The notes under the pieces: model-generated
Database searches by the model: none
Seen by the model: the letters and a program-made list of their open reading frames with translations, nothing else
What the model was told of the DNA's origin: nothing
Shown here: piece by piece, positions 17,722 to 33,175 of the stretch
Layout of the letters: each line of letters opens with the position of its first letter
How positions within the stretch are numbered: the first letter of the stretch is position 1
Source of the DNA: Streptomyces sp. ML-6
Lineage (GTDB): Bacteria > Actinomycetota > Actinomycetes > Streptomycetales > Streptomycetaceae
Direction of reading: 5' to 3'
Assembly (NCBI RefSeq): GCF_030116705.1
Contig: NZ_JAOTIK010000001.1
Location: 6,662,501 to 6,726,500, forward strand
DNA length: 64,000 nucleotides
Program-made: the position numbers and the translations under genes

Positions 17722-18669
17722 TCATAGCCGTGACGTGGTGAGCCGCTGACGGAACCAGTCCACAGCAGCGGGGACCCCTTCCTGAAGGGCTACGGGAGCG
17801 ACTGTCGGGAACAGAGCTCGCAGGCGTGTGCCGTCAGCCTGTGAGTGGGGGACATCGCCGACGCGGCCCGGCACGTGTTCCCGTTGCACGCGGAGGCCCG
17901 TCGCCGTCTCGATCTCCTGGACCAGGGCCAGCAGCGAGGTACGCGTCCCGTAGGCCAGGTTCACAGGGCTTGGGCTAACGACCCGGCGGAAGAGGGCGTC
18001 GGTGAGGACGTTGCAGACCGTGCTCACGTACGTGAAGTCGCGCGTCTGGGTGCCGTCGCCGTGGATGGTCACCGGCTTGCCTGCGAGGGTGGCGCTGATC
18101 CACTTCGGGATGACGGCGGCGTAGGCGTGGTCGGCGCGCTGGCCGGGGCCGTAGACGTTGAAGAAGCGGAAGGGGAGGACCGGCAGGTCGAAGCTGTGGT
18201 GGTAGGCGCCCAGGTACGCCTCCGTCGTGAGCTTGGTGACCGCGTACGGGCTCATGGGGGCGGAGACGAGGTTCTCGTGCTTCGGCAGCTGGGGGTTGGC
18301 ACCGTAGACGGAGGACGAGGACCCGGCGATCACGTGCGGACCTCCGGCGCGGCGGGCGGCCTCCAGAACTTGCAGGGTGCCGGTCGCGTTGGCGTGATGG
18401 CTGGCCAGGGGGTCACGCAGGGAGCGTGGCACAGAGGGGAGGGCGGCTAGGTGGACGACGGCGTCGGCACCGCGGAACGCCTGGTCGAGGAGAGCGGCGT
18501 TCTGGACGTCTCCTTCGAAGAAGTCCACATCGAGGCCGACGAGGTTCGCCTTGTCTCCGGTGGAGAGGTTGTCGACGACCCGGAGCTGGGTGACCTGAGG
18601 CAGCTCGGTCAGAGCACGGGCAAGGTTGCCGCCGATGAATCCGGCGCCGCCAGTGATCACTATCTTCAC
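17722..18669 (-). CDS. NAD-dependent sugar epimerase/dehydratase (GalE-like SDR)
   Basis: This 315-aa extended SDR has the Rossmann signature TGGAGFIGGNL at residues 6-16 and the catalytic set Ser in GSSSSVYG plus YAVTK. The sequence HGDGTQTRDFTYV is typical of UDP-hexose 4-epimerases and related NDP-sugar epimerases. The likely role is interconverting UDP-glucose/galactose or the corresponding uronic acids. It lies 11 bases downstream of the UDP-sugar dehydrogenase on the same strand, so a UDP-hexose to UDP-uronic acid route is a reasonable inference. Confidence 0.88.
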   Translation of the reverse strand: MKIVITGGAGFIGGNLARALTELPQVTQLRVVDNLSTGDKANLVGLDVDFFEGDVQNAALLDQAFRGADAVVHLAALPSVPRSLRDPLASHHANATGTLQVLEAARRAGGPHVIAGSSSSVYGANPQLPKHENLVSAPMSPYAVTKLTTEAYLGAYHHSFDLPVLPFRFFNVYGPGQRADHAYAAVIPKWISATLAGKPVTIHGDGTQTRDFTYVSTVCNVLTDALFRRVVSPSPVNLAYGTRTSLLALVQEIETATGLRVQREHVPGRVGDVPHSQADGTRLRALFPTVAPVALQEGVPAAVDWFRQRLTTSRL

Positions 18670-18680
18670 GTTGCTTCCCT

Positions 18681-19976
18681 TCAGAGAGAGTCGACGTGGG
18701 CACCGGAGAGCCGGCGGCGGCAGTCGAGTATGTACGGGGAGTGGGCGCTGATCAGGGGGTAGTCGAAGGCGTCGTGGTCCGCGAGCAGGACTACGGCGTC
18801 GGCTGTCGCGAGCAGGCCGGGGGTCACCTCGACCCGCTGGAGGCCTTCCAGGCCGGCGGCGCGGGGGTGGGCGTCGTCCAGGACGTGGGGGTCGGCGGCC
18901 TGGACCTCGGCGCCCATACCGGTGAGGAGTTCGGCGATGCGGGCCGCCGGCGTCTCACGGGCGTCCCCGGTGTTGGCCTTGTACGCCACACCGAGCAGCA
19001 GGATCCGGGAGCCCTTGAGTGGCTTCCCACGTTCGTTGAGGCCCGCCACGAGACGCCGCACCACGTAGTCGGGCATGTGGTTGTTGACGTCGTTCGCCAG
19101 CTCGACGAAGCGGAAGTTCTGCCCCAGGGTTCGCTCAACCCGCCACGACAGGTACGAGGGGTCGACGGGCAGGCAGTGGCCTCCGACCCCGGGGCCGGGG
19201 GTGAAGCGCATGAAGCCGAACGGCTTGGTGGACGCTGCGTCGATGGCCGCCCAGACGTCGATGCCCAGGTCGTGGGCGAAGATCGCCAGCTCGTTGGCGA
19301 GGGCGATGTTCACGTGCCGGAAGGTGTTCTCAAGGAGCTTGGTCAGCTCCGCCACCTTGCAGCTGGCCACGGGGACGACGGTGTCTACCAGGGATGCGTA
19401 GAAGTCACGGACCGACTTCAAGGAAGACGGGGTGATGCCCGAGACGACCTTGGGCGTGTTCTCCAGCCTCCAGCTGGGGTTCCCGGGGTCGATGCGCTCG
19501 GGGCTGTAGCCGAGGCGGAAGTCCCGGCCGGCGGCCAGCCCGGAGCCGCGCTCGAGCAGCGGGCGGAACACCTCCTCGGTCGTCCCGGGGTACGTGGTCG
19601 ATTCCAGGACGACTGTCGCTCCGCGGGTCAGGTGGAGGCCCAGCGTCCGCGCCGCGTCCTCAACGTGCGACAGGTCCGGCGCGCCGTCGCGTAGTGGCGT
19701 CGGGACGGTGACGACCGCCACGTCGAACCCGGCGCAGTCGGCCGGGTCGACGGTCGGCGTGTAGACGCCGGCGGCGAGGAGGGGCGCCAGCCGCCTGTCC
19801 GAGATGTCCTCGACGTACGACTCGCCGAGCATGAGTCTCTTGATCCGCCCGGCGTCCACGTCGAGGCCGACGACGTGGTGCCCTACCTCGGCGGCTCGCA
19901 CGGCCAGCGGGAGGCCGACGTATCCCTGCCCCACGACGACCACGCGGAGTCGATGGGGTTCGTGATTCCGGAGCAT
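18681..19976 (-). CDS. UDP-sugar 6-dehydrogenase (nucleotide sugar dehydrogenase)
   Basis: The 431-aa protein has the NAD-binding VVVGQGYVGLPLA near its N-terminus, TVPTPL, the central dimer-forming AELTKLLENTFRHVNIA with the conserved Lys and Asn, and the catalytic Cys in GVGGHCLPVDP. This is the UDP-glucose/UDP-ManNAc dehydrogenase family, which oxidises C6 of a UDP-hexose twice to the uronic acid. The start ATG at 19976 follows AAGGTGG. It is the first gene of a two-gene minus-strand unit with the epimerase and diverges from the metG-like gene across a 350-base control region. Confidence 0.92.
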   Translation of the reverse strand: MLRNHEPHRLRVVVVGQGYVGLPLAVRAAEVGHHVVGLDVDAGRIKRLMLGESYVEDISDRRLAPLLAAGVYTPTVDPADCAGFDVAVVTVPTPLRDGAPDLSHVEDAARTLGLHLTRGATVVLESTTYPGTTEEVFRPLLERGSGLAAGRDFRLGYSPERIDPGNPSWRLENTPKVVSGITPSSLKSVRDFYASLVDTVVPVASCKVAELTKLLENTFRHVNIALANELAIFAHDLGIDVWAAIDAASTKPFGFMRFTPGPGVGGHCLPVDPSYLSWRVERTLGQNFRFVELANDVNNHMPDYVVRRLVAGLNERGKPLKGSRILLLGVAYKANTGDARETPAARIAELLTGMGAEVQAADPHVLDDAHPRAAGLEGLQRVEVTPGLLATADAVVLLADHDAFDYPLISAHSPYILDCRRRLSGAHVDSL

Positions 19977-20327
19977 GTGGTCCACCTTGCTGAAGTCTGG
20001 GCTCGGGGGGAGCGGGGACGCACTTGTGGTGCGGGATTCGCGGTCGGCGGTGGCCGTAAGATGGGGAGCGCCTCGGCCGTCCGAGACTCGCTTGGCCGCC
20101 TGTCTCGGACGGCCGAGTGCTGTTCGTGGGCAGCGCGGGGAGGCCGGAAAACCCGTGGGCTGGCCAAACCCCCGGTTCGATACGATGACGGTGGCTTGCA
20201 GCCCTGTTCTGTCACCGTGTGTGATGCTGGCGTGCGATCGGAGTGATCGCGTCGGCTGCGGCCTCCCGACCTGGGCCCGCCGTGGCAGTGCCACCGGCGC
20301 CATACGTATGAAATGGAGCATCCAAGG
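19977..20327. promoter_or_regulatory. Divergent control region with several inverted repeats
   Basis: This gap between the dehydrogenase and the metG-like gene holds four inverted repeats: a perfect 16-bp-arm repeat at 20072-20087/20102-20117 with a 14-base loop; ACGGTG/CACCGT at 20188-20193/20213-20218; GTGGCAGTGCCAC at 20282-20294; and CATACGTATG at 20301-20310, just before the ribosome site. I found no T-box consensus. The arrangement could be operators, an attenuator, or both. Confidence 0.55.
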
Positions 20328-22052
20328 ATGGCTCGACACCTGGTAACCAGCGCGCTTCCCTACATCAACGGGATCAAGCACCTGGGCAACATGGTCGGGT
20401 CGATGCTTCCGGCGGATGTGTACTCCCGGTACCTCCGCCAGCGTGGTCACGATGTCCTTTACATCTGCGCCACCGACGAGCACGGCACCCCCGCCGAGCT
20501 GGCAGCCAAGGAGGCCGGGCTCTCGGTCGCCGAGTTCTGTGCGCAGGCGCACGACGCGCAGAAGGCCGTGTACGACGGGTTCGAGCTGGCCTTCGACTAC
20601 TTCGGGCGCAGTTCCTCGCAGCAGAACGTCGAGATCACCCAGCACTTCGCGCGGAAGCTGAACGAGAACGGCTTCATCGAGGAGCGTGCGATCCGGCAGG
20701 TGTACTCGCCGGTCGACGGACGCTTCCTGCCGGACCGGTACGTCGAGGGCACCTGCCCGCACTGCGGCTACGACAAGGCCCGTGGCGACCAGTGCGAGAA
20801 CTGCACTCGCGTCCTCGACCCGACCGACCTGATCGACCCGCGATCGGCGATCAGCGGTTCCACGGACCTGGAGGTCCGCGAGACCAAGCACCTCTTCCTG
20901 CTGCAGTCCAAGCTCCAGCACGACGTCGAGGAGTGGATCGCCACCGTCAGCGCGGAGTGGCCGCACCTGTCCACGTCCATCGCCCGCAAGTGGCTGACCG
21001 AGGGCCTGAACGACCGCGCCATCACCCGCGACCTCGACTGGGGCGTCCCGGTGCCGGCCGACACCTGGCCGGAACTCGCGGCTGAGGGCAAGGTCTTCTA
21101 CGTCTGGTTCGACGCCCCGATCGAGTACATCGGCGCGACCAAGGAGTGGGCAAACGCCGTCGGCGATGGCGAGTCCCGTGACTGGAAGTCGTGGTGGTAC
21201 GAGGCCGATGACACCGTCCGCTACACGCAGTTCATGGCCAAGGACAACGTCCCCTTCCACACGGTGATGTTCCCCGCCACCGAGCTCGGTGTGCGGGAGC
21301 CCTGGAAGAAGGTCGATGTCGTCAAGGGCTTCAACTGGCTGACGTTCTACGGCGGCAAGTTCTCCACCTCCCAGAAGCGCGGCGTCTTCACCGATGCGGC
21401 CCTGGAGATCCTGCCCGGGGATTACTGGCGCTACTTCCTGATCGCTAACGCCCCCGAGTCGGACGACTCGTCGTTCACCTGGGAGCACTTCACAGCCACG
21501 GTCAACAAGGACCTGGCGGACACCCTCGGCAACTTCGTCAACCGCGTGCTGTCGTTCTCCCGCAAGCGTTTCGGCGACGAGGTCCCGGCCGGGCACGCCG
21601 TCGGCGAGGCGGAGGCGAAGCTGGGCGAGGAGATCGCACGGCTGCTCGGCGAGTACGAGGAGCAGATGGAGGCCCTCCAGTTCCGCAAGGCCGCCGCTGC
21701 CCTGCGCGCGCTGTGGTCCGCGGGCAACTCCTACCTGGAGGAGAAGGCCCCCTGGCTGGAGATCAAGACCGACGCCGACGGCGCCGCGCTGACGCTCCGT
21801 ACCGCGATGAACCTGATCCACCTGTACGCGGTCGTCTCCGAGCCGTTCATCCCGGCCACGGCCGCCGCCATGCGCGGGGCCTTCGCCCTGGAGAACGACA
21901 CCGCGACCTGGGTGACCGCCGACCAGGCCAAGTCCCTGGACACCGTCCCGGCTGGCACCGCGTTCACCGTGCCGCCCGTGCTCTTCGCGAAGATCACGGA
22001 GGAGGACCTGGAGTCCTACCGCGAGCGCTTTGGCGGCGCCCCGGAAGCCTGA
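20328..22052 (+). CDS. metG: Methionyl-tRNA synthetase
   Basis: The 574-aa class I synthetase reads [13 protein letters not shown] (HIGH motif as HLGN), CATDEHGTP, a four-Cys zinc knuckle ([17 protein letters not shown], about residues 140-157), [17 protein letters not shown]-like MAKDNVPFH, and KFSTS at the KMSKS position. These features match the zinc-containing MetRS subgroup that includes eukaryotic-like enzymes; my recollection is that streptomycete housekeeping MetRS also has HLGN and KFSTS. No C-terminal tRNA-binding domain follows the anticodon-binding helices. I prefer ATG 20328 because GGAG lies nine bases ahead. It could be the only metG of the cell or a second copy tied to the surrounding sugar/transferase genes. 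Confidence 0.95.
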
Positions 22053-22064
22053 CGGGCGTCCCCG

Positions 22065-22103
22065 CGCCCGCACCGTCCCGACTCTCATCGGACGGTGCGG
22101 GCG
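22065..22103. terminator. Convergent terminator after metG
   Basis: Perfect 14-bp arms at 22065-22078 and 22090-22103 with an 11-base loop lie between the metG stop and the tail of the opposite-strand histidine phosphatase; the right arm overlaps the last codons of that gene. Confidence 0.65.
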
Positions 22104-22723
22104 TTGAGGAGGACGGGCAGGTCCGCAGGCGAGACGTTCATGAGCCGCACGCGCGGAGCTGGGCCGCCGATCTCCACCCACGTGAGCCCGGCGGACCCGG
22201 GCACGTGCTGGAGGTACCGGTCGAAGCCGTTCCCGGTGAGCCACAGCAGCAGGCAGGCGATGCCCCCGCCGTGCCCGACGAGGACGGTGGTTCGCCGCCC
22301 CCCGGAGCAGACCTCGGCCCACAGATCCACGTAACGAGCCTGGACATCCTCCGACGACTCGCCGCCCGGCGTGCGGAGCCGGTGGATCGGCACACCGTGG
22401 CGAGCGGCCTCAGCGGCGGCGAGCTCTCTGGGCCGGCCCCCGAGGTGACCGCTGTCCTTGGCGGCCAGACGCTCGTCGACGCGGACATGGGCTGGGGCGA
22501 GCGTGGCGGTGAGAAGCTCGGCCGACTCCCGGCAACGGGACATCGGGCTGACGAGCATCTGGTCCATGGCGACCCCGGCCGTCGTGAGGCAGGCACCGAC
22601 CAGCCGCATGTCGGCGCGTCCGCGCTCGCTGAGCCGGCCGCCGACCGCGCGGCCCTGGTGGATGCCCTGGAGGTTCTCCTCGGTCTCGCCGTGCTTGATC
22701 AGGTAGATGTGCTGGGTGTTCAT
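22085..22723 (-). CDS. Histidine phosphatase family protein with altered RHG motif
   Basis: The 212-aa protein has the phosphoglycerate mutase-like fold: YLIKHGETEEN at the N-terminus, SPMSRCRESAELL, and VLVGHGGGI with the second catalytic His. The usual RHGxTxxN motif is KHGETEEN here, so the phosphate-binding Arg is replaced by Lys while the nucleophilic His is kept. It may dephosphorylate a sugar phosphate or nucleotide-linked intermediate made by the operon; that is inferred. It is the last gene of the six-gene minus-strand operon, 23 bases after the FkbM gene. Confidence 0.85.
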   Translation of the reverse strand: MNTQHIYLIKHGETEENLQGIHQGRAVGGRLSERGRADMRLVGACLTTAGVAMDQMLVSPMSRCRESAELLTATLAPAHVRVDERLAAKDSGHLGGRPRELAAAEAARHGVPIHRLRTPGGESSEDVQARYVDLWAEVCSGGRRTTVLVGHGGGIACLLLWLTGNGFDRYLQHVPGSAGLTWVEIGGPAPRVRLMNVSPADLPVLLNARTVR

Positions 22724-22746
22724 GGCGTCGTGTCCCCTCACTCCGC

Positions 22747-23301
22747 TTAGTCCCAGTGGCGGACGTCGACGCGTGCGGAGACGGTGGTGGCGACCTCGTC
22801 GTGCTCGGCCTGGCTCATGGCGGGGAAGCGGTCGTGGTGCCACTCGACGTAGAGGACGGAGACGAGGCCGATCGTCTCGTCGGCGAGCAGCTTCCTGAGC
22901 ACGGGGTACTCGGCGCCCTCGATGTCCATCTTTACGACGACGTGGTCCTCCGGCGTGGCGGTCCGGCGGAGCCAGGCGCTGAAGTCCACCGCCGGGACGG
23001 CGACGGGGGAGCTGTAGTCGATCTGCTGGTCGTACACGGGCGGTACCCGCTTGCCGGACATCACGGTGGAGCTCTCGTGGTGGCCGAGGAAGAGGTCGAT
23101 TGTGCCGTCCTCGGTCCACACCGCACTGGGGGAGACCTCGACCAGGCCGGCGTGCTGGGCCTGCTCCACGTTCGCCGTGATGGAGGGGAGCAGGGTCGCA
23201 TTGGGCTCGAAGGCGTAGAAGTCGTGGTCCGGGAGCTCGTGCATAAAGCGCTTCAGCACGATTCCGAGGTTGGCGCCGCAGTCGACGAAGATCTTGCGCA
23301 T
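22747..23301 (-). CDS. FkbM-family SAM-dependent methyltransferase
   Basis: This 184-aa protein has the SAM-binding FVDCGANLG at residues 5-13 and FEPN at the ribose-binding acidic position, and the FkbM hallmark VVKMDIEGAEYPVL. FkbM enzymes usually O-methylate hydroxyls on sugars, polyketides or lipids. At 184 residues it is at the short end for the family but has both core motifs. It starts five bases after the membrane protein gene, with GGAGG ten bases ahead of its ATG, so it is co-transcribed. In context it would methylate the glycosylated product or a sugar. Confidence 0.85.
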   Translation of the reverse strand: MRKIFVDCGANLGIVLKRFMHELPDHDFYAFEPNATLLPSITANVEQAQHAGLVEVSPSAVWTEDGTIDLFLGHHESSTVMSGKRVPPVYDQQIDYSSPVAVPAVDFSAWLRRTATPEDHVVVKMDIEGAEYPVLRKLLADETIGLVSVLYVEWHHDRFPAMSQAEHDEVATTVSARVDVRHWD

Positions 23302-23306
23302 GAGAG

Positions 23307-24854
23307 TCAGTCCTCCAGGTCGGTCATCGGAGCGCTGAGGTCGATCTCCCGTACGACGCGATCGGCGAGCAGGACGAAGTCGCCGGTCTCGGGGAGGTAG
23401 CAGCGCTCCTCGTAGCGGATGGTGATGCGGCGGACGGGTTCCTTGCCGCGGTAGGCGGGCAGATCGCCCCATCGGTAGAGCTGGCCCCCGGGCGCCTTGA
23501 GTCGACGTAGCCACCGGGGCAGGGGGCTCTTTCGAGTACCGGCGTTGAGCCGGGTGAACATGGCGGTCAGGAAGGCGACGTGCTCGGCCGAGCGTTCCTC
23601 GTCCCTGTGCGTTCGGCCGTACGTCTGCTTGAGCGTGTGCAGCTGGTCCCGGTCTCGGCCGGCCTGGACGAGCAGATCGCGAATGCGCCGGTCCCAGACG
23701 ATTCCGAGGTGGCCGTGGAGTATGGGCTCGTCCGTCAGGAAGTAGCCCTCTACGCGGCCGAACTCGCGCTCGTACGGGCACATGTAGTCGTTGTAGAGAC
23801 CCCTCGTCGCGCCGGAGACGGTCTCCACCTGCCAGTGGATGCGGGCGGTGAAGGGCGCGTCCCACCACCCCAGATGCCAGGGCTGCCACAGCAGGTCGGC
23901 GGTGCTGAGCAGGATCACGGTGAGCGCCACCAGCGCGGCGGGCCACCCGAAGGCCGTGTCGTACCCCGTGTCGGGGAGCAGCCCGACGACCGTCGCGAGT
24001 CCGATGTTGGCGGCGATGTTCTCCCAGAAGAGGATGCCGGAGGCGAGGGCGACGGCGAGGTTGAAGAGTGCGGTCGCCACCAGGATCGCGATCAGCAGCC
24101 GGCGGTCGAGGAAGGCAACCAGCCCGGCGGCCTCCACGACCATCGTGAGGATGTTGACGGGGCGGTCCACGACCCTCGCCCGGCGCAGGAGCTGAGACAC
24201 CTTCCCGGACGGGAGGAAGCGTGCCCAGCCCCAGGAGTGCGCCGAGGCCATGAGGTAGTGCGTGCGGTTGTCCCGGGCCCACGACCAGGGATGCGGTCCC
24301 AGACGGGCCTTGCTCCAGGCCGGCTTGACGTAGTGCGACAGCGAGACGCAGCCGAGTACCAGCACCAGACCGGCCGTGGAGTCGGAGGGAGGAGGGGCGA
24401 GGACCGCGGTCACGACGAACCAGGCGAGGTACGTCTTCAGCAGGCGCACCGGCATCATCGCGTGGTGCTGCCACCCGCGCAGCCTGCCGCAGAACACGGC
24501 GATCCACGCCGACAGGGCGGCAGCCCAGACGACCGAGGCGACGGCGAGGAACAAGAGGAGCAGCTTGTCCCGACGCTGGGGACCGATGGGCAGCGTGACG
24601 TCGTAGTCGCTTGTCACGCCGCGCCAGGTCAGTAAGGCGATCACGAAGACGACGAACCAACGCAGCGGCCCGGGAAGGGGCGACGTCCGGAGCGTCAGAG
24701 GGGCGATGACCGCGACGGCCGCGCTCACGGCCAGGGGCGTGGGGTGACGGGCGAGGGCCCGTACAGCCGGGGAGACCCTGAGGCGGTAGCACGCCACGAC
24801 GGCGGCTACGACCGTTGCGGTCGCCACGTACGAGGGAGCCAGGGGAGCCGACAT
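23307..24854 (-). CDS. Polytopic membrane protein of unknown function
   Basis: The 515-aa protein has roughly eight to ten hydrophobic segments in residues 5-335, then a soluble C-terminal domain of about 170 residues with GLYNDYMCPYERE, EGYFLTDEP and RRITIRYEERCYLP. I do not recognise the family with confidence; a Trp/His-rich region (SHYVKPAWSKARLG, NRTHYLMASAHSWGWARFLP) between membrane spans could be catalytic, as in integral membrane transferases or HTTM-like proteins. Residue 74 (in VIALLTWRG) is encoded by the rare TTA at 24635-24633. The gene follows the glycosyltransferase by six bases and precedes the FkbM gene by five. Confidence 0.8.
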   Translation of the reverse strand: MSAPLAPSYVATATVVAAVVACYRLRVSPAVRALARHPTPLAVSAAVAVIAPLTLRTSPLPGPLRWFVVFVIALLTWRGVTSDYDVTLPIGPQRRDKLLLLFLAVASVVWAAALSAWIAVFCGRLRGWQHHAMMPVRLLKTYLAWFVVTAVLAPPPSDSTAGLVLVLGCVSLSHYVKPAWSKARLGPHPWSWARDNRTHYLMASAHSWGWARFLPSGKVSQLLRRARVVDRPVNILTMVVEAAGLVAFLDRRLLIAILVATALFNLAVALASGILFWENIAANIGLATVVGLLPDTGYDTAFGWPAALVALTVILLSTADLLWQPWHLGWWDAPFTARIHWQVETVSGATRGLYNDYMCPYEREFGRVEGYFLTDEPILHGHLGIVWDRRIRDLLVQAGRDRDQLHTLKQTYGRTHRDEERSAEHVAFLTAMFTRLNAGTRKSPLPRWLRRLKAPGGQLYRWGDLPAYRGKEPVRRITIRYEERCYLPETGDFVLLADRVVREIDLSAPMTDLED

Positions 24855-24860
24855 GTCCAG

Positions 24861-26009
24861 CTACCCCGCGACCGGAGCGGGTATCAGCCGGTCGACCGTT
24901 GGCAGGCTCTCCAGGTACGAGGCGATCCGCTCCCGGGGGTCAGCCGAGAGGTACAGGTCCCGGTGGCGTACGACGTTGTCGCTGAGTGCCCGACCGCGCG
25001 CGAGGAATTCGAGGACAGCCCGCCGTTCGATGCGCGGGGCCGCAGTTCCCAGTCCGGCCTCCTCGGTGACCTTCGCGCACCAGTGCTGGTCGTAGGTGGG
25101 TAACGGGATGAGGTGGACCGGTTTGCCGAGGACGAGTGCCTCGCTGATCAGGTTGAAGCCGGCGTTGGAGACCACGGCCTCGGAGCGAGCCATGTCCGCG
25201 ATGAACGCCTCGCGGTCGAAGGCGCGGATCTCTACACGGGCGTCGGCGTACCCGAGCAGGGACCTCAACTCCGTCGGCTGCGTGTAGATCCGCAGCGTTC
25301 GGTCCGGTACGGACTGGCGGAAGATCGAGGCCAGTTCGCGGACGGATTCCTCCGGGCCGTGGTCGAAGTAGCGGGAGAAGTAGGCCGTGACGAGGGGCTC
25401 GGTGGTGACCGGTGCCGATCTGATGAGATCGGGAATGACCGGGGCGATGAACTCGACTCTTCGGTCCTCGGCGTCCAGTGGGATGTAGGAGCAGATGAAG
25501 GACCGGTCGACGCGGGGGGCGAAGTACCGCAGTCGCTGCTCTTCGGCCGTACGGGCGTACCGGTCGACGACGGGAAGGTCCAGGTGTCGGTACTTGCTCT
25601 GTTGGTCGATGGAGATGAGCGGTCGGCCGAAGTGGTAGGCGAGGCGCGGGGTGTTGGGCTCGTAGTCGGTGATGAACACATCCGGAGCACCGCTGCTTCG
25701 GACGAGCCGACGCAGCTGGAGGTGTCGGCGGAGACCTCCGGGTACCTGGCGGATGTTCGCGCGCACGGCGTCGCGAGCGTGGATCCGGTCGTCGCGTGCG
25801 AGGAGCGTCGGCATCCATCCGTCCCAGGCGGGGAAGCCGAGGTCCTGGAAGTACGCGATCCGACCGGAGCCGTTGGTGATGATCCGAACCTGGTGCCCGC
25901 GGTCGCGGAGGTACTGGGCGATCGCGCTCTGCCGGACCGTGTGTCCCATGCCGATGCCGTTCACGCCGATGATCACGTTGAGCGGCTGTTCGTTGCCGTT
26001 TCCGGACAT
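24861..26009 (-). CDS. MurG/UGT-like glycosyltransferase (GT-B fold)
   Basis: The 382-aa protein starts NVIIGVNGIGMGHTVRQSAIA, the N-terminal GT-B acceptor-domain motif seen in MurG-like and MJ1255-type glycosyltransferases, and has the C-terminal donor-binding segment VVSNAGFNLISEALVLGKPV with LPTYDQHWCA. It should transfer a sugar from a UDP-sugar, plausibly supplied by the nearby dehydrogenase and epimerase. ATG 26009 follows AAGGA. Leu303 (in HLIPLPTYDQ) is encoded by TTA at 25103-25101, so in a streptomycete translation would need the bldA tRNA. Confidence 0.88.
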   Translation of the reverse strand: MSGNGNEQPLNVIIGVNGIGMGHTVRQSAIAQYLRDRGHQVRIITNGSGRIAYFQDLGFPAWDGWMPTLLARDDRIHARDAVRANIRQVPGGLRRHLQLRRLVRSSGAPDVFITDYEPNTPRLAYHFGRPLISIDQQSKYRHLDLPVVDRYARTAEEQRLRYFAPRVDRSFICSYIPLDAEDRRVEFIAPVIPDLIRSAPVTTEPLVTAYFSRYFDHGPEESVRELASIFRQSVPDRTLRIYTQPTELRSLLGYADARVEIRAFDREAFIADMARSEAVVSNAGFNLISEALVLGKPVHLIPLPTYDQHWCAKVTEEAGLGTAAPRIERRAVLEFLARGRALSDNVVRHRDLYLSADPRERIASYLESLPTVDRLIPAPVAG

Positions 26010-26028
26010 GAGGATTCCTTTTCTTCGG

Positions 26029-27345
26029 TCAGGAGAGCCGGGTGATGACGTTGCGGGTGACAGCGGAGACCTGGGGGTCTGTGGCCAGGAGTCGGGCCCA
26101 GTCGGTGGTGGCGGCGGTGAAGACCGTGCCGCCAGCTGTGAAGACGCCGAGGGTGGCGGCCCGAGGGCTGGACATCGGCTCACGGGCGGCGAAGTTCCAG
26201 TCCGGGGGGAGCTCGGCGATGCCGAGGATCTCGAAGTCCTTCGGCGTTCCGTCCTGCCCGGTGGGACGCGGCCGGCCGGCGGCGTCGTACTCGTAGGCCG
26301 CGCCATCGCATTCGTAGCCGATCAGGGCCCCGTCGTGTCCGAGAGTGTCGCCGGTATTCAGCCCCGTGCCGCAGTACACCCAGTGGCCGGCGTCCGTGAC
26401 GATGAAGCCCCGGCAAGCTCGGGTGCCGTCCCAGTGACCGCCGCCGTTGCGGTAGCTCACGCCCAGGAGCGTGTTCTCCGGCTCTGACTCCCACCAGTGG
26501 TCCGGGCAGCCGTACGAGCTGTCCGGATCAGTACCGGCGGGGGCGCCGGGCGGGAACTTGTCACAGGACAACCCTGCCCCGTCCGGAGTGACGCCGACGC
26601 GCCACCAGCAGGTGTTGGCGCCGAAGTTGGCGATGTGGCCGCCGGCGTCACGGAAGGCGGTCACGTGGCGTCGGATGTCGGTGCTCCAGTATTCGTCGTG
26701 ACCGGCGGAGACCAGGAGACGGTAGCCGTCACGCAGGAACAGGCCCTCGTGGAGATCCAGGTCGGTGCAGTAGTCGGCCTCGATCCAGTTCCGTTCCATC
26801 CAGGCGATGAAGTGGGCGTCCCAATGAGCGAACGTCTGCCGGGGGGACGACGGGTCGTACGCGTCCGGCAGGCCCTTCACCGGTCCGCCGACACCGCCCC
26901 CGGGACGGCGCGTCGTGATCTGGGAGGCGCTGTAGAGGCTGCCGCCGCCCGCTGTGTTGTACGCCTGGTAGGTGAACGTCGGGATCTTGTACAGGATCCT
27001 GCGGCCGGAGGGCGCGGAGGGAGTGACGACCAAGAGGATGCGCCCCTCCCTGGCATCCAGCGGCGGAGTACCGGACGCGTGCTCCGTGCCCAAGACCGCG
27101 ATGTAGACGCCGGACCGCCACTCCGGGGGTACGAGAAACTCGTACGCGGGCCACCGCCAGTCGGCGTCGAAACGTCCGGAGGACGCGGCACGGCCGGGCC
27201 ACTCGCTGTGTCCCGCATGCTGCGGTGTGGCTCCCCAGCGATAGAAGTCAACGTGTACGTGGGGAGCGGTGGTGGCGATGTGCAGGCGCACCACCTCGCC
27301 GGCGCGGACGCTGGGCCGGGCCGCGTATCCGTTGACCGGGATCAC
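26029..27345 (-). CDS. N,N-dimethylformamidase beta-subunit-like protein
   Basis: The 438-aa protein matches the DMFase large-subunit pattern: an N-terminal beta domain (residues 1-110), then YKIPTFTYQAYNTAGGGSLY, DYCTDLDLHE, LLVSAGHDEYWS, and GGHIANFGANTCWWRVG. Characterised members hydrolyse small formamides, but most homologues are unassigned and may cleave or bind other amides or be glutamine amidotransferase-like. GTG 27345 has GGGAGGG just ahead and overlaps the methyltransferase stop by four bases (GTGA), showing tight coupling. Among glycosyltransferase and methyltransferase genes it may act on an amide of the operon product. Confidence 0.8.
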   Translation of the reverse strand: MIPVNGYAARPSVRAGEVVRLHIATTAPHVHVDFYRWGATPQHAGHSEWPGRAASSGRFDADWRWPAYEFLVPPEWRSGVYIAVLGTEHASGTPPLDAREGRILLVVTPSAPSGRRILYKIPTFTYQAYNTAGGGSLYSASQITTRRPGGGVGGPVKGLPDAYDPSSPRQTFAHWDAHFIAWMERNWIEADYCTDLDLHEGLFLRDGYRLLVSAGHDEYWSTDIRRHVTAFRDAGGHIANFGANTCWWRVGVTPDGAGLSCDKFPPGAPAGTDPDSSYGCPDHWWESEPENTLLGVSYRNGGGHWDGTRACRGFIVTDAGHWVYCGTGLNTGDTLGHDGALIGYECDGAAYEYDAAGRPRPTGQDGTPKDFEILGIAELPPDWNFAAREPMSSPRAATLGVFTAGGTVFTAATTDWARLLATDPQVSAVTRNVITRLS

Positions 27346-28019
27346 GCGCCCTCCCTGGGGCGGGCCACACCGGACAGGTGGAACGCGTCGATCGTCTCGA
27401 CGCGGGCGTCCCAACCCAGACCATCCAGCTGGGAGGTGAGGTCTGCGGGGTCTCGGAGCACCTTCACGGCGACGTGGCGGGAACCGTCGGAGAGGGTGCG
27501 TCGCACGGTCGGTACCGGCGCCTCGTCCACCTGTTCCTCGATCTCCGCCTTCGCCGACGAGTCATCGAGGAACACCACGTGGCCGCCCGGCGCCAGCGCC
27601 CGCCGAAGCAGGTCCCAGAACGGCTCCATCTCGACCGGCGGGACATGGCTGAGCCAGAAGGCGAAGAACACCGTGTCGTACTGGCGGTCCGGTTCCCAGC
27701 CGAAGATGTCCGCTTCGATAAAACGGGTCGCGGTGCCCCGCACGCGGTCGCGGGCTCGGCGGAGCATCTCCGGTGCCGCGTCCAGCGCGGTCAGGCTGTG
27801 GGCCTGGGGGAGGAGCAACTTGGTCCACTGGCCCGTGCCGCAGGCGAGCTCCAGGACGTCACCGCTGACCGGTAGCGCGTCAAGGGCCTTCGCGAGCCGC
27901 GGCATGCTCATGCGGTCGCTGTACGTGCCGTCGTACTCGTCGGCTCGATCGCGGTAGTAGGCGATTTGCCGTTCGGACCAGTCGTCCGAACCGTGCTGTT
28001 GTGCCTTCGCTTCGGTCAT
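27342..28019 (-). CDS. Class I SAM-dependent methyltransferase
   Basis: The 225-aa protein has motif I VLELACGTGQWT (about residues 55-66), TALDAAPEML for ribose binding, EADIFGW and GGHVVFLDD. It is a typical small-molecule methyltransferase; the substrate is unknown. It is the first gene of the six-gene minus-strand operon, so its promoter must lie in the 270 bases before the divergent regulator gene. Confidence 0.9.
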   Translation of the reverse strand: MTEAKAQQHGSDDWSERQIAYYRDRADEYDGTYSDRMSMPRLAKALDALPVSGDVLELACGTGQWTKLLLPQAHSLTALDAAPEMLRRARDRVRGTATRFIEADIFGWEPDRQYDTVFFAFWLSHVPPVEMEPFWDLLRRALAPGGHVVFLDDSSAKAEIEEQVDEAPVPTVRRTLSDGSRHVAVKVLRDPADLTSQLDGLGWDARVETIDAFHLSGVARPREGA

Positions 28020-28288
28020 CGTGTGACCACCCCTCTCGTCTGCCTGCGGAGCGGTGGAGCTCCGTGCTGAGCAGACTGCCGAGCTGCGTCGGACAGCGGG
28101 CTGCCGTGGTGTCGCACTCGCGGTGCAGCACCGCCGCTGTCCAAGGCGGCGGGTGCACCTCGCTCAGACCTGGCCGGAATGGCCGGGTGCTGCATCCGTG
28201 CTGAACTCCCGTCGCAGCGAAGGCTCTACGCCGCTGGTCAGACCGCCCTACCCTGTTATCGTCGTCGGTGTCGGTCGAAGGAGCTCAG
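28020..28288. promoter_or_regulatory. Divergent intergenic region
   Basis: These 270 bases separate the methyltransferase operon from the NB-ARC regulator and should hold both promoters. I see no clear -35/-10 pair, iron box or long palindrome; GGAGCTCC near 28070 is a short palindrome. An N-terminal HTH in the adjacent regulator makes this a likely binding region. Confidence 0.4.
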
Positions 28289-31200
28289 GTGGCCACAGTG
28301 CAGCGCTGGACCGGACGGGAGGCGCGCGCTCTGCGGCTCGCGACGCGTCGGAGCGTGCGTGGCTTCGCGTCCTACCTCGGCGTCAGCGACCGGACGGTGT
28401 CCAACTGGGAGGCCCGGGGCGAGGAGATCGTCGTCGCACCGGACTCCCAGGCGCTACTCGACACGGCGTTGGAACGGAGCGACGCGGAGGTGCGGCAGCG
28501 CTTCTGGGACTCCGTCGGCGTTCCAACGCCCTCGGTCTCGCCGGCGCCGGACCACTACCTTCCGATACCCGTTCCGGAGCCCGGCTTGGTGCACAGGTCA
28601 GAAGATCTCGAAGGGCTCGTCTCCGTACTCCGGGAGGCGTCGCAGGACGACAGCGTCGCCACGGTCGCCCTGTGCGGCCCTGGTGGGTTCGGTAAGACGA
28701 CGCTGGCCACCCAGGTGTGTCACGACACCCGCGTCCGGGACTCCTTCTCGGAGATCCTCTGGGTGGAGACCGGCGAGGGTTGCACGGCCGCCAGGGTCGT
28801 CGAGCTGATCTCCGACCTGTGCGTCCACCTCGACGGCAATCGCCCGTCCCTCGCGGACCCCGAGCAGGCCGGGTTCCACCTCGCGCGTCTGCTCCAAGGA
28901 CGACGCGCGCTCCTCGTCGTCGACAACGTCTGGTCCGCCACCGACCTCGGCCCCTTCCTGCTCGGCGGCGAGGACTGTGTACGGCTCGTGACCACGAGGA
29001 ACGTGCGCGTGAGCCCCAGCTCCGCCCGAGTCGTTCGCCTCGGGCCCATGGCCCCGGGCGAGATCCGGGAACTGCTCGTCCGCAACGTCGGAGCCCTGGA
29101 CGACGCCGAGGCCGCACGCCTCGCAGGCGTGTGCGGGGGATGGCCGCTGCTCGCCTCGATCGTCGGGGCGAACGTATCGCAGGAGGTCGGCTCCGGCGCC
29201 CCGGCCGGACGCGCCGTTACGGAGACGAGCGCGACGATCCGCGCGTACGGTCCCCAGGCTTTCGACGTCTGGGACTCCGACCAGCGCAAGAACGCCATCG
29301 GGCAGGCGCTCGAGTCCAGCCTCCGCAGCCTCGCGGAGAGCGTCTCGATCGCCGGGCGTACGGACCTGCGAGACCGATACCTCTCCCTGGCCGTGTTCCC
29401 TCCGTCGGTGCCGATCCCCATGTCGGTACTCACCCACTGGTGGGGCACCGCGAACGGATGGGCTCCCCACGTGGTGCGCCAGTTCTGCCGGGTGCTGTCC
29501 GACCGGTCCCTGATCAGCGCCTACCTCGCCGACCGGAACGCCATCGTGCTGCACGACGTGTTCCGGTCCTACCTGCGCCATCTGATCGGCGATCAATGGG
29601 CGACTCTTCATCGGTCCCTGATTGAGGCGTACTGGCAGAGCACGGACGGCGCCTGGGAGACCCTGGAGGAGACCGAAGGGTATCTGTGGCGCCACCTTCC
29701 CTACCACCTGTGTGAGGCCGGCCTCGACGCCGAGCTTGTCAGCCTGCTGGCCTCGCCGACGTACATCATGCGTAAGGTCGCGCTCGTCGGACACCAGTCG
29801 CTGGCCGCGGACGCCGCCGTGCTCGACGCCCTGCCAGGGCGGCATGAGGTGGGCCATCCGCAGCACCAGGTGTGGGCGACCGCCCGTGCCCTGACCGGCG
29901 CCGGGTATCTGCTGAGCGGGCTGGAGAGCCCCGCCGATATCGCCTCGACGCTCTCGGTCGTGCTGCGCCGCGCACCCTTGCCCGAGGCCACCCGGTTCCT
30001 GGGAAACGTCGTGGGGGAGGGGACAGTGCTCGCCCCGAAGTGGCTGTTGCCCCCGGAGGAGAACCCCGCGGCGGCGGAGCGTGGTCACATCGGCGCGGTA
30101 GTCAGTGTGGCCGCCGTCCGCGACCTCGTGGCGTCGGGCGGCGAGGACGGGGTGGTCAGACTGTGGGACCTGGGCACGGGCCGACTCCTCCGAGCCCACG
30201 AGGCCCATACCGGGTGGGTGTTCGCCACCGCGCTCTCCGCGGACGGGACGGTCCTCGCCTCGGCGGGCGACGACGGAGCGATCCGGCTGTGGCGCACGGA
30301 CACCGGCGAACCTGTAGGGGTGCTACCGGGGCACAATCGTCGTATCCGCAGTCTCGCCTTCTCCTCGGTCGACCGCGTCCTGGTCTCCGGTGCCGAGGAC
30401 GGCGCAGTATGCGTGTGGGACCTGGAGCGCCTTGTGCTCCTGCGTACGATGCGGGCGGCCGGCACCCCCGTCTGGTCCGTGACGATCGGCGGCGACTCCG
30501 ACTCGCTCGTCGCCGTGGCCGGCGAGGACGAGTTCGTCCGCCTCTTCGACCTGCGCACCGGTCGCCTCCTGGACGAACGCGCGGCACACAAGGACTGGGT
30601 CCGCTCCGTGGCCTTCGCCCCAGGCTCCTCCCTCCTGGCCTCCGGATCCGGCGACCGTTCCGTAGCCGTGTGGGACGCGACCGACGGAAAACTCACGCTC
30701 ACCCGCCGGATCACCGACCTCAAGGCGCGCGTGCGCGCCGTCGCTCTGTCCCCGCACGACAATGTCCTCGTCTCCGCCACCGAGGAACCGAGGATCCAGG
30801 CGTTCTCGGCGGAGAGCCCCGTGGGCGAGACCCAGCTCCCACCAGGCGTGGACTGGGTGCGCTCACTCGCCAGAACGGGCGACGGCACCGTGATCGCCGG
30901 ATGCGAGGACGGCGCTGTCCGCATCTGGACCATGGGGAAGAGCAGGCTCAGGACCCTGGCCAGCGGCTCGAACACCGTATGGTCCACACAGTTCGCGGCC
31001 GGTGGACGCATCGCCGTGGTCGGCGACGGGGCCGGCGGCGTCGGCGTCATCGACACCACGACCGCGACAGTCAGCCGGAGACTCCCGGCGGCCCACGGAC
31101 GCGTCTGGTCCCTGGCCTGCGGCGAGAAACACGTTGCCGCAGCATGCGGCGACGGGGCGGTCAGGGTCTGGTCGCTGCTCGACACCGCTTGGTCGCTCAC

Positions 31201-31813
31201 CCTGAACCAGGACACCCCGCGTACGTGGGCCGTGGCGATGGCCCGTTCGACACCTCGTGTCGCCGCGAGCACGGGCGATGGACACATCCGGTGCTGGGAT
31301 CTGCCCACCGGGACGCTGCTGTGGAGCCAGGACGTGCACGCTGGTCGGCTGCGGTCGCTCTCCTTCGACGACAGCGGGGACCTCTTGGCAGCCTGCGGTG
31401 GTGACGGCTCGGTACGCGTGTGGCACGCCCCCACAGGGGAGTTCAGGAGCCGGTTCAGCAGCCCCAGCGGCTGGGCCCGCGCTGTCGCCGTGGACGGTCC
31501 GGGCAACCGGGTGGCGGTCGGGGCGGGAACCGGCGACATCGCGGTACGTCGCCTGGGGGCGGACCGGTTCACCTCCCACCTCTCCGGCCACACGGGCCGC
31601 ATCCTCATGCTGGGCTTCATGAGCGACGAGGACCGCCTTGTGTCCGCTGCGGCGGACGGGACGGTGCGCGTGTGGTCGCTCGGCGAGCAGCGGCAGATCG
31701 CCAAGGTCCGGGTGGACGCCTCACTGCACTGCGCGGCCTTCGAACCCACGACGGGCGAGGTGCTGGTGGGGAGTGCGGCCGGCGTCGTAGCCCTGGGGAT
31801 CATTGACACATGA
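28289..31813 (+). CDS. XRE-type HTH / NB-ARC (STAND) ATPase / WD40 protein
   Basis: The 1,174-aa protein starts with an XRE-like helix-turn-helix (residues 15-50, SVRGFASYLGVSDRTVSNWE). An NB-ARC ATPase follows: P-loop CGPGGFGKTT near residue 130, Walker B ALLVVDNVW near 210, VRLVTTRNVR, and CGGWPLL. Then comes a helical region, and from about residue 600 a long WD40 array, some 13-14 repeats or two propellers (for example SGGEDGVVRLWDLGTGRLL). GTG 28289 follows AAGGAG by five bases. STAND proteins oligomerise on ligand binding; with an HTH it is most simply a ligand-activated regulator of the divergent operon. Antiphage STANDs also share this layout. Confidence 0.88.
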   Translation: MATVQRWTGREARALRLATRRSVRGFASYLGVSDRTVSNWEARGEEIVVAPDSQALLDTALERSDAEVRQRFWDSVGVPTPSVSPAPDHYLPIPVPEPGLVHRSEDLEGLVSVLREASQDDSVATVALCGPGGFGKTTLATQVCHDTRVRDSFSEILWVETGEGCTAARVVELISDLCVHLDGNRPSLADPEQAGFHLARLLQGRRALLVVDNVWSATDLGPFLLGGEDCVRLVTTRNVRVSPSSARVVRLGPMAPGEIRELLVRNVGALDDAEAARLAGVCGGWPLLASIVGANVSQEVGSGAPAGRAVTETSATIRAYGPQAFDVWDSDQRKNAIGQALESSLRSLAESVSIAGRTDLRDRYLSLAVFPPSVPIPMSVLTHWWGTANGWAPHVVRQFCRVLSDRSLISAYLADRNAIVLHDVFRSYLRHLIGDQWATLHRSLIEAYWQSTDGAWETLEETEGYLWRHLPYHLCEAGLDAELVSLLASPTYIMRKVALVGHQSLAADAAVLDALPGRHEVGHPQHQVWATARALTGAGYLLSGLESPADIASTLSVVLRRAPLPEATRFLGNVVGEGTVLAPKWLLPPEENPAAAERGHIGAVVSVAAVRDLVASGGEDGVVRLWDLGTGRLLRAHEAHTGWVFATALSADGTVLASAGDDGAIRLWRTDTGEPVGVLPGHNRRIRSLAFSSVDRVLVSGAEDGAVCVWDLERLVLLRTMRAAGTPVWSVTIGGDSDSLVAVAGEDEFVRLFDLRTGRLLDERAAHKDWVRSVAFAPGSSLLASGSGDRSVAVWDATDGKLTLTRRITDLKARVRAVALSPHDNVLVSATEEPRIQAFSAESPVGETQLPPGVDWVRSLARTGDGTVIAGCEDGAVRIWTMGKSRLRTLASGSNTVWSTQFAAGGRIAVVGDGAGGVGVIDTTTATVSRRLPAAHGRVWSLACGEKHVAAACGDGAVRVWSLLDTAWSLTLNQDTPRTWAVAMARSTPRVAASTGDGHIRCWDLPTGTLLWSQDVHAGRLRSLSFDDSGDLLAACGGDGSVRVWHAPTGEFRSRFSSPSGWARAVAVDGPGNRVAVGAGTGDIAVRRLGADRFTSHLSGHTGRILMLGFMSDEDRLVSAAADGTVRVWSLGEQRQIAKVRVDASLHCAAFEPTTGEVLVGSAAGVVALGIIDT

Positions 31814-31838
31814 GCGAGAAGTGAAGGGCTTGGAGACC

Positions 31839-33059
31839 ATGACAGAGAAGACCTCCCGCGCCTCGGGCGAAGAGGCCGTTCGCGACGCCGGCCCCATCGG
31901 TGCCCCGGTCATCCTGAGCAACGAGTCCGGCTCGTTCGCCTGGGGTGTGCTGGCCAAGCGCCACCCTGCCCTCATTCAGCAGGTACGAGATGCCTTCCCG
32001 TACGGCCGCCGACAGCACGAGGCCCTCGACGCCCTGCTGGAGGAGATCACCAACAGTGTGGTCGAGCCGCTCGCCCCTGCGGAACACGACCACGAGCGCT
32101 GGGCGGACTGGGGGCAGGAGCACTTCGGACGCTTGTGGTACGACGCCCCGTTCCTGTGGGCGGAGAGCTACTTCTACCGCAGGCTCCTCGCTGCCATCGA
32201 GTACTTCGGCACCGGCCCATGGCAGGGAGTTGATCCGTTCGCGCCGTTCAAGCAGGCCGAACTGCGCGGTGACGCGGTGGAAGAGGAGCTGCGAGCTCTC
32301 GACGCGCTTGCGGACGCGCCGACCGAGGAGCGGGCCACGGCCCTGCTCCACGCCTCGCTCTGGGGCAACCGCGCGGATCTCGGCTTCCGCGTTGCGGCGG
32401 GGGAGCCGGCGGTCGGTGACGCCGCTGCCTCCACGCTGGTGGCCGATGACAGCGCGGTGCTGTGGCAGCTCCTGCCCGCCGGAGCGTCCTCCACCGTCGC
32501 CGTGGTGGCGGACAACGCGGGACGAGAGCTCATCCCGGATCTGATCCTCATCGACCACCTCCTCGAACATCGGCACGCCGAACGGGTCGTGCTCCACGTC
32601 AAGCCTTACCCCTACTACGTCTCCGACGCGATGACGGCTGACGTCGTCGACTGCCTCCGTCGCCTCACCGAGGCGCCCGGCGAAGCCGGCCGGATCGGCG
32701 GCCGACTCTGGAAGGCCATGGCGGCAGGAAGCCTGGAGGTCCGCACCCACCCGTTCTTCTGCGCTCCGCTGCCGTACGAGGGGATGCCCGAGGACCTTCG
32801 CGGCGAGTTCCAGAGCGCCACGCTCACCATCCTGAAGGGCGACCTCAACTACCGTCGCCTGGTGGGTGACCAGCTGTGGGATGCCACGGTGCCCTTCGCC
32901 GATCTCACTGCCTACTTCCCGGGAGCCGTCGCGGCGCTCCGGACCCTGAAGTCCGACGTCATCGTCGGCCTGGAGCAGGGAACGCTGGACGCCCTCGAAC
33001 GGTCCGGGGCTGCCTGGCGTACAAGCGGAACTCACGCGCTGATTCAGGTGAGAAGGTAG
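31839..33059 (+). CDS. ARMT1/DUF89-family damage-control phosphatase-like protein
   Basis: The 406-aa protein carries DUF89 motifs: VVADNAGRELIPDLIL with the metal-binding Asp-Asn, LKGDLNYRRLVGD (GDxNYR), and LKSDVIVGL near the C-terminus. Characterised DUF89 proteins are metal-dependent phosphatases acting on sugar phosphates or damaged metabolites. ATG 31839 lies 25 bases after the regulator stop, preceded by AAGGG and GGAG, so the two are co-transcribed. Together with the operon's histidine phosphatase it suggests handling of a phosphorylated sugar, which is inference. Coding homology ends sharply where the RHS remnant begins. Confidence 0.85.
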   Translation: MTEKTSRASGEEAVRDAGPIGAPVILSNESGSFAWGVLAKRHPALIQQVRDAFPYGRRQHEALDALLEEITNSVVEPLAPAEHDHERWADWGQEHFGRLWYDAPFLWAESYFYRRLLAAIEYFGTGPWQGVDPFAPFKQAELRGDAVEEELRALDALADAPTEERATALLHASLWGNRADLGFRVAAGEPAVGDAAASTLVADDSAVLWQLLPAGASSTVAVVADNAGRELIPDLILIDHLLEHRHAERVVLHVKPYPYYVSDAMTADVVDCLRRLTEAPGEAGRIGGRLWKAMAAGSLEVRTHPFFCAPLPYEGMPEDLRGEFQSATLTILKGDLNYRRLVGDQLWDATVPFADLTAYFPGAVAALRTLKSDVIVGLEQGTLDALERSGAAWRTSGTHALIQVRR

Positions 33060-33175
33060 AGCCAAGGCGGAGTGAGCTCCGGCGCATCAGGTCTCATACC
33101 TGGAATGGTCGGCTACGTCAGCTCGTCTGCTTCACACTGACGCCACTGCCACGCGGGGCAGCCCGGGCAGACAGC

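Follow-up and report, generated by a model that had tools for sequence, protein, structure and literature searches.

We analyzed a 64,000-nucleotide stretch of the 9.1-Mb genome of Streptomyces sp. ML-6 (contig NZ_JAOTIK010000001.1, positions 6,662,501 to 6,726,500; hereafter the window, in whose numbering positions are given) and found in it a cassette that is, with near certainty, a real horizontally mobile unit. Its nine-gene core consists of a sugar epimerase, a nucleotide-sugar dehydrogenase, a methionyl-tRNA synthetase (MetRS) and a six-gene operon. The MetRS is of type 2 (MetRS2) and accompanies, in every host of the cassette, a type 1 enzyme (MetRS1) encoded elsewhere in the genome. 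In our judgment, there is about an even chance that the cassette makes a glycosylated metabolite directed against MetRS1, from which MetRS2 protects the producer; we infer the product, the inhibition and the protection alike from comparison of genes and genomes.

Organization and Spread of the Cassette

The epimerase and dehydrogenase genes are read leftward, the MetRS gene rightward and the operon leftward again, after which two rightward genes encode an NB-ARC/WD40 and a DUF89 protein. From left to right, the operon encodes a histidine phosphatase, an FkbM methyltransferase, a membrane protein, a GT-B glycosyltransferase, a dimethylformamidase (DMFA)-like protein and an S-adenosylmethionine (SAM) methyltransferase; adjacent genes overlap by 4 bases at three junctions and are 6 and 16 bases apart at the other two (with the starts used here). 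These families had been named in an earlier reading of the bare sequence (the original prediction) and were confirmed by Pfam and NCBIfam profiles. Together the genes form a discrete island of ~15.3 kb, and the limits first proposed for it coincide with the edges of blastn homology to four genomes carrying this longer form (17731-33060 in G418, 17731-33063 in G398, 17749-33050 in G057, and 17768-33049 in G359). The window flanks have no blastn match in the compared stretches of these four genomes, and the neighboring SpoIIE phosphatase and LplAB genes have no match in the 11 stretches searched. The copies do not each occupy a site of their own, since parts of the right flank are common to G057, G359, G197, G397, and G188, and both flanks are common to G398 and G418.

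Using the membrane protein gene as a marker, we scanned 392 genomes of the same genus and obtained matches in 12, of which eight (Streptomyces sp. ML-6 included) have the core, three have only a distant relative of the membrane protein, and one (G022) has an epimerase together with a fragment of the membrane protein. A scan of species genomes with two short peptide patterns, by which divergent relatives will be missed, returned 24 loci: 12 cassettes and 12 distant membrane proteins (36-43%), the latter with no other core gene above 34% identity. After removal of the Streptomyces solincola and Streptomyces pacificus loci, which duplicate genomes G359 and G398, we were left with 18 distinct cassette genomes, not all of them independent: G188 and G397 show 99.9% identity across 32 kb, and G398 is a sister of G418. 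The hosts include Streptomyces tanashiensis, Streptomyces coeruleorubidus, Streptomyces griseofuscus, Streptomyces albus subsp. chlorinus, S. solincola, S. pacificus and one member of another family, Sphaerimonospora thailandensis. No cassette was found in a plasmid collection, where a single record partially matches the membrane protein (21%), and a phylum-wide search with a profile of the cassette glycosyltransferase reached E 1e-60 in one of 396 genomes, that of ML-6 itself.

The genes had rightly been seen as one coherent system: their homologues co-occur in other genomes, and all nine core genes stand in one fixed order in 17 of the 18, the Sphaerimonospora copy keeping seven. When the state of the other 17 copies was checked, with the window copy counted as intact, the MetRS, phosphatase, FkbM, membrane protein and glycosyltransferase genes proved to be 94-100% covered and unbroken in 18/18. 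Damage was confined to the remaining genes. The DMFA-like gene of G197 is split by a ~1.5-kb insert, two frames are needed to read the A3M-1-3 epimerase and, likewise, the S. coeruleorubidus methyltransferase, perhaps through sequencing error, and in the Sphaerimonospora copy the methyltransferase was not found and the dehydrogenase is reduced to a 10% remnant. Because the MetRS is intact in all 18 copies, we count it as part of the system, and its position inside every cassette disposes of the suggestion that it is merely a neighbor. In four copies, by contrast, some other core gene is missing, split or spread over two frames. The NB-ARC and DUF89 genes, which had been included in the predicted block, are in contrast variable passengers present in only 8 of the 18 cassettes.

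The Cassette MetRS and Its Type 1 Counterpart

The cassette MetRS is full length, with an anticodon-binding domain (PF09334, PF19303). Its best relatives in the PDB are the human cytosolic (5gl7, 408 bits) and P. abyssi (1rqg, 398 bits) enzymes, and the Staphylococcus aureus-type MetRS 7wpi scores 142 bits; which PDB entries count as type 1 is in part our presumption. These relationships place it in the type 2, archaeal/eukaryal-like class as it is presented in passages of PMC8165550 and PMC9071491. According to passages of the former, MetRS2 is poorly sensitive to MetRS1 inhibitors and the two types differ by a proline/leucine exchange, for which the matching position was assigned in this analysis to a motif reading VWFDAP in all 45 type 2 rows (the 18 cassettes included) and YVWVDAL in the type 1 enzyme of ML-6.

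The ML-6 type 1 gene lies at C1:3786091. A type 1 gene is present elsewhere in the genome in all 18 cassette hosts, for each of which the cassette copy is the sole type 2 copy listed. Of 199 Streptomyces sampled, type 1 alone was detected in 77, type 2 alone in 101, the two together in 18 and neither of them in 3 at the limits applied, so that type 1 occurs in 95/199. Stop-containing genes of type 2 (G143, G161) and type 1 (G102, G112) were counted as present, whereas three genomes in which just a third type, of 38-39% identity, turned up did not count as having type 1. At this frequency, if hosts were random, type 1 in 17 of 17 Streptomyces cassette hosts would have a chance of 3.5e-6, a value that is too small by an unquantified factor because host relatedness (phylogeny) is ignored. 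The 18 dual genomes of the sample comprise four with the cassette, five in which the two genes are adjacent (G102, G106, G118, G130, and G222), apparently a housekeeping synthetase replacement in progress, and nine others. All but one (L108) of seven intact type-2-only loci compared, namely L102, L104-L107, and L113, have flanking DNA around the type 2 gene in common with the type 1 loci L111 and L115.

In a tree of 45 type 2 proteins (the 30 best-scoring of 119 loci, 12 named cassettes, G397, G418, and G012; midpoint root only), the 18 cassette MetRS2 and six stand-alone copies from dual genomes form one group (support 97/89), whose nearest neighbors are from the type-2-only genomes G206 and G012. 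Cassette and stand-alone copies are interleaved within this group, so exchange has happened.

The genus also holds other MetRS-like genes. A third type, 38-43% identical to type 1, occurs in G108, G023, G213, G168, G040, and G156, and there are further frames of 690-790 codons at 26-29% identity, which we would guess to be cupin-MetRS enzymes. Broken type 2 genes are found in G023 (L109), which also has a type 1 gene, and in G108 (L110), where only this gene and one of the third type (39%) were found.

A Conserved Leader Upstream of the MetRS Gene

A stretch of ~260 bases that leads up to the MetRS start is conserved in all 16 cassettes tested. The same leader precedes stand-alone MetRS2 genes in G006, G029, G217, and G121 (73-78% identity), and the broken type 2 locus of G023 keeps a remnant of it. 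In a survey covering a minority of the 119 type 2 loci, it was not found at E 1e-3 at any of 20 other type 2 loci (L076-L095), nor at L108 or the type 1 loci L111 and L115; no housekeeping MetRS2 locus in this survey had it.

Aligned over 20 rows (mean column identity 79%), the leader contains an inverted repeat of 16 pairs (20072-20117), along with two more helices before the start codon. Pair counts lean in favor of these helices, since the repeat was picked by eye and RNAalifold proposed helices 2 and 3 as the consensus of this very alignment; with this bias, 94.4% of cells pair, and double changes, at 4 pairs in 7 cells, are above nearly all shuffles. One pair of the inverted repeat is broken in 14 of the 20 rows. 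On the MetRS strand, helices 2 and 3 have 36 G-U versus one A-C cell (cells not being independent), and among background pairs A-C is slightly commoner than G-U. This G-U excess points to an RNA structure within the MetRS message.

No Rfam family reaches threshold for the leader, the nine sub-threshold matches (best E 0.02) being microRNA and small-RNA hairpins over the inverted repeat. A T-box riboswitch was rejected, there being no Rfam T-box match at the gathering threshold or at E up to 10, and a consensus promoter/terminator scan of the leader returned nothing. A conserved leader peptide was considered and dropped, since a nine-codon frame visible by eye in several rows is fused or missing in others. 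Passages of a 2005 survey of actinobacterial leaders (PMC1262725) describe trpS and leuS attenuators and ileS T-boxes, which resemble the MetRS leader in that a structured leader lies upstream of a synthetase gene; the terms metS, metG and methionyl have no occurrence in those passages. The MetRS leader RNA is apparently undescribed.

Predicted Chemistry and Sister Clusters

The presumed UDP-sugar dehydrogenase is indeed a nucleotide-sugar dehydrogenase and, by TIGR03026 and its PDB relatives, is nearer to UDP-N-acetylhexosamine (UDP-HexNAc) than to UDP-glucose dehydrogenases. Its best PDB relatives are UDP-N-acetylmannosaminuronic acid dehydrogenase (4r16), Cap5O and an NDP-N-acetylgalactosaminuronic acid (GalNAcA) dehydrogenase, and those of the epimerase include WbgU and WbpP. 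By similarity, both are nearest to enzymes of N-acetylhexosamine-uronic acids.

The DMFA-like protein matches PF20254 over most of the profile and, in profile searches, N-acetyl-(R)-beta-phenylalanine acylase (8huy, E 1e-9) and dimethylformamidase (6lvb, E 4e-8) over ~80-125 residues. In dimethylformamidase and the acylase, the iron ligands are two tyrosines and one glutamate. The glutamate of GHDEYW aligns with HPEY, and for TYQAY the alignment to the acylase is confined to a weak segment. N-deacylation of a transferred sugar would be a natural guess for this enzyme. An amide-containing product had been foreseen; with an N-acyl amino-acid acylase and dimethylformamidase as relatives, this is better read as amide removal.

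In its predicted fold, the membrane protein may be akin to vitamin K gamma-carboxylase (GGCX/HTTM), and its invariant K182 aligns with an HTTM lysine. At the sequence level no Pfam match to these proteins was found: none of nine family members matches PF05090 at E up to 5. Members of the family that lie outside the cassette (L054-L065) occur in other Streptomyces, Myxococcales/Polyangia, other proteobacterial metagenome-assembled genomes, Nannocystis and Thalassoglobus.

The DMFA profile finds 20 of the 392 genus genomes. These fall into three groups: the eight cassette genomes; G019, G105, and G139, joined by another locus of G397; and nine further genomes, joined by another locus of ML-6. 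The second-group, or sister, loci have the epimerase and DMFA-like genes in 4/4 and the dehydrogenase in 3/4, at 56-70% identity, together with YcaO, P450 and methyltransferase genes (4/4), an aldo-keto reductase (3/4) and one or two other glycosyltransferases (by Pfam for G105 and G019 and by tblastn for the rest). The stretches read at these loci contain no match to the MetRS, the GGCX-fold protein or the cassette glycosyltransferase. The genes held in common with these YcaO/P450 clusters point to a specialized metabolite as the product class; the epimerase/DMFA module thus belongs to at least two specialized-metabolism settings, the MetRS to only one.

The second DMFA-like gene of ML-6, which is more distant, lies at G000:C1:7319541 (L160, L161) in another conserved block that encodes a methyltransferase, a HAD hydrolase, ABC-transporter proteins, a radical SAM protein and an epimerase. 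Five other Streptomyces compared have parts of this block.

Proposed Function of the Cassette

The biosynthetic steps that we propose are given in order of decreasing certainty, from the UDP-sugar to the membrane enzyme. A UDP-HexNAc-uronic acid, for example UDP-GalNAcA, would come from the dehydrogenase and epimerase; the GT-B enzyme would pass this sugar on to a small acceptor, and the DMFA-like enzyme would strip an N-acyl group. Both methyltransferases, along with the phosphatase, would finish or unmask the product, on which the GGCX-fold membrane protein might perform a quinone-coupled step. The diffusible glycosylated product would inhibit MetRS1, and MetRS2, hardly touched by known MetRS1 inhibitors, would keep the producer's translation going, with the leader raising MetRS2 synthesis upon a fall of charged tRNA-Met.

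Second, insensitive synthetases are found in producers or hosts in the case of mupirocin (IleRS2), indolmycin (TrpRS) and borrelidin (ThrRS). As in these systems, a second synthetase of a different type stands beside a retained housekeeping one, here inside a biosynthetic block; the cassette differs in that the synthetase is a MetRS and the product putative. A mobile MetRS2 of Gram-positive bacteria was reportedly described by Brown and by Gentry in 2003. Common to both cases are the horizontal addition of type 2 to a type 1 host and the ability of MetRS2 to withstand MetRS1 inhibitors, whereas the cassette MetRS2 is a constant member of a gene cluster and is preceded by a structured leader of its own. 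We know of no natural MetRS inhibitor, and a limited literature search, which took in the MetRS passages of the review PMC7916415, found none. An IleRS1/IleRS2 pair is also mentioned in PMC10485003. The cassette shows two traits of a duplicated target, namely a second target gene fixed in the cluster and a separate type 1 gene retained, each in 18/18, and this MetRS1-plus-MetRS2 pattern favors self-resistance, a role already suggested for the MetRS and one that we too infer. A MetRS tied to cluster self-resistance was not found in a literature search that had most subscription journals outside its scope, and, as in the original prediction, no described cluster could be matched to the block, here in a limited literature search without cluster-database comparison. 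A second synthetase inside a producer cluster follows a known logic, while this synthetase, gene set, membrane protein and leader are, to our knowledge and within these limited searches, not described.

Several observations weigh against the proposed function. The most awkward is that 0 of the 18 cassettes lies in a type-2-only host, a kind of host that would be expected to suit the cassette best if MetRS2 served self-protection alone; the sample is small and phylogeny uncontrolled. No polyketide synthase, nonribosomal peptide synthetase, adenylating enzyme, precursor peptide or obvious exporter was recognized in the core; for a precursor peptide, there is no room between core genes except upstream of the methyltransferase, and no systematic search for small open reading frames was made. 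Cassette MetRS2 do not form one clade and fall in two places, three of them among stand-alone copies. The leader was not found at the stand-alone MetRS2 genes of G166 and G205 (E 1e-3), and its double changes are few, slid controls reaching 3 pairs and 6 cells. As for the membrane protein, the GGCX fold match has a Z that the tool rates as middling for helical proteins, and Foldseek returned nothing at E < 0.1.

The cassette might instead build a cell-surface glycan or glycolipid, with a methylated uronic-acid sugar and a membrane enzyme, on which MetRS2 rides along as useful by itself. The sugar enzymes do resemble capsule and O-antigen enzymes, the FkbM, GT-B and membrane proteins would suit envelope chemistry, and MetRS2 also stands alone with the same leader. 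However, chance riding leaves unexplained why the MetRS occupies the same inner slot in 18/18, and the core Pfam matches include no flippase, polymerase or lipid-linked sugar transferase. The surface glycan offered by the original prediction is further weakened by the sister loci, all four of which combine the epimerase and the amidohydrolase with YcaO, P450 and methyltransferase genes, and we regard it as unlikely.

Dedicated synthetases supply charged tRNA in some clusters, and MetRS2 could likewise feed Met-tRNA to a tRNA-dependent biosynthetic step, which would suit its presence in 18/18 at full length with the anticodon domain. This appears improbable, because the genome already has MetRS1, a type 2 enzyme is not required for such a step, and no Fem-, LanB-, cyclodipeptide-synthase- or GNAT-like partner is seen among the core Pfam matches. 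An immunity or anti-phage island with NB-ARC as the sensor, which the NB-ARC/WD40 architecture and the patchy, mobile distribution could suggest, is very improbable: the PADLOC matches of 3 of 10 proteins (methyltransferase to mad2, 4e-19; NB-ARC/WD40 to HEAT-ARM_XIII, 1e-24; and weakly, at 4e-4, the glycosyltransferase) are common domains matched to parts of larger models with no partner genes, and NB-ARC is absent from 10 of the 18 cassettes. MetRS-cupin enzymes act in diazo and azaserine-type clusters. That the cassette MetRS is such an N-N bond-forming ligase rather than a synthetase, as the mention of MetRS in papers on these clusters (PMC11429834, PMC10445470) might suggest, is scarcely credible, since it is full length with an anticodon-binding domain and no cupin match and is 79-90% identical to type 2 MetRS of genomes without a detected type 1, relatives that must therefore charge tRNA.

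Gene Calls and Neighboring Genes

The features of the island are listed in Table 1. The dehydrogenase was taken to start at ~20015, where conservation across copies begins, and the two frames or stop shown by many copies are attributed to 68-76 residues at the head of the query that would precede the true start. For the MetRS, translation may begin at 20328 (GGAG before MARHL).

Table 1. Features of the cassette island in window coordinates
Feature	Position	Strand	Evidence and occurrence
NAD-dependent sugar epimerase, probably UDP-HexNAc(A) 4-epimerase (WbgU/WbpP/TviC-like)	17722..18669	-	PF01370 E 4e-55; 18/18 cassettes
Nucleotide-sugar dehydrogenase, probably UDP-HexNAc 6-dehydrogenase	18681..20015	-	TIGR03026 above cut-off; 17/18 cassettes
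Structured MetRS leader, also divergent promoter region	20066..20327	+	Conserved alignment, helices
Type 2 methionyl-tRNA synthetase (genome's second MetRS)	20313..22052	+	PF09334 and PF19303; 18/18 cassettes
Histidine phosphatase (CobC-like)	22085..22750	-	PF00300 E 1e-29; 18/18 cassettes
FkbM-family methyltransferase	22747..23310	-	PF05050 E 2e-10; start inferred; 18/18 cassettes
Membrane protein, GGCX/HTTM-like predicted fold	23307..24854	-	Without Pfam match
GT-B glycosyltransferase, MJ1255/VC2487-like	24861..26012	-	PF13528 E 2e-34; TIGR00661 below cut-off; start inferred; 18/18 cassettes
DMFA-like amide hydrolase, possible N-deacylase	26029..27345	-	PF20254 (DMFA2_C) E 1e-65; 18/18 cassettes
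Class I SAM methyltransferase, first gene of the operon	27342..28019	-	PF13649 E 3e-18; 17/18 cassettes
NB-ARC-WD40 protein, candidate regulator, accessory	28268..31813	+	PF00931, PF00400; 8/18 cassettes
ARMT1-like (DUF89) phosphatase, accessory	31803..33059	+	PF01937 E 1e-64; 8/18 cassettes

The N-terminal helix-turn-helix (HTH) of the NB-ARC-WD40 protein was assigned by eye in the original prediction. Upstream of the methyltransferase, some other copies have a P-loop kinase (AAA_33), a 2'-5' RNA ligase-like or an HTH-TPR protein (Pfam, eight genes at five loci), and L050 has none of these. The kinase, of 346 residues, is conserved in the NB-ARC-less copies L043, L049, and L051 (Pfam AAA_33) and L045 and L046 (blastp), and is possibly a product-modifying or protective kinase. 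Immediately beyond the right edge of the island lies a gene for an RHS/YD-repeat protein (33235-36201).

Significance

A bolder and more doubtful proposal builds on the self-protection reading: the product would be a natural type-1-selective MetRS inhibitor, with MetRS2 as its antidote under a new RNA leader responsive to loss of charged tRNA-Met, and such cassettes would both be the origin of MetRS2 and drive by selection its spread in Streptomyces and perhaps in other Gram-positive bacteria. MetRS is an active drug target and MetRS2 a known route to insensitivity, so a mobile cluster that takes MetRS2 into MetRS1 hosts, as all copies seen do, is a concrete place to seek a natural MetRS inhibitor. 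The cassette also gives a genetic context to a bacterial protein of predicted gamma-carboxylase-like fold. If true, the proposal would answer the question of why MetRS2 exists as a mobile gene.

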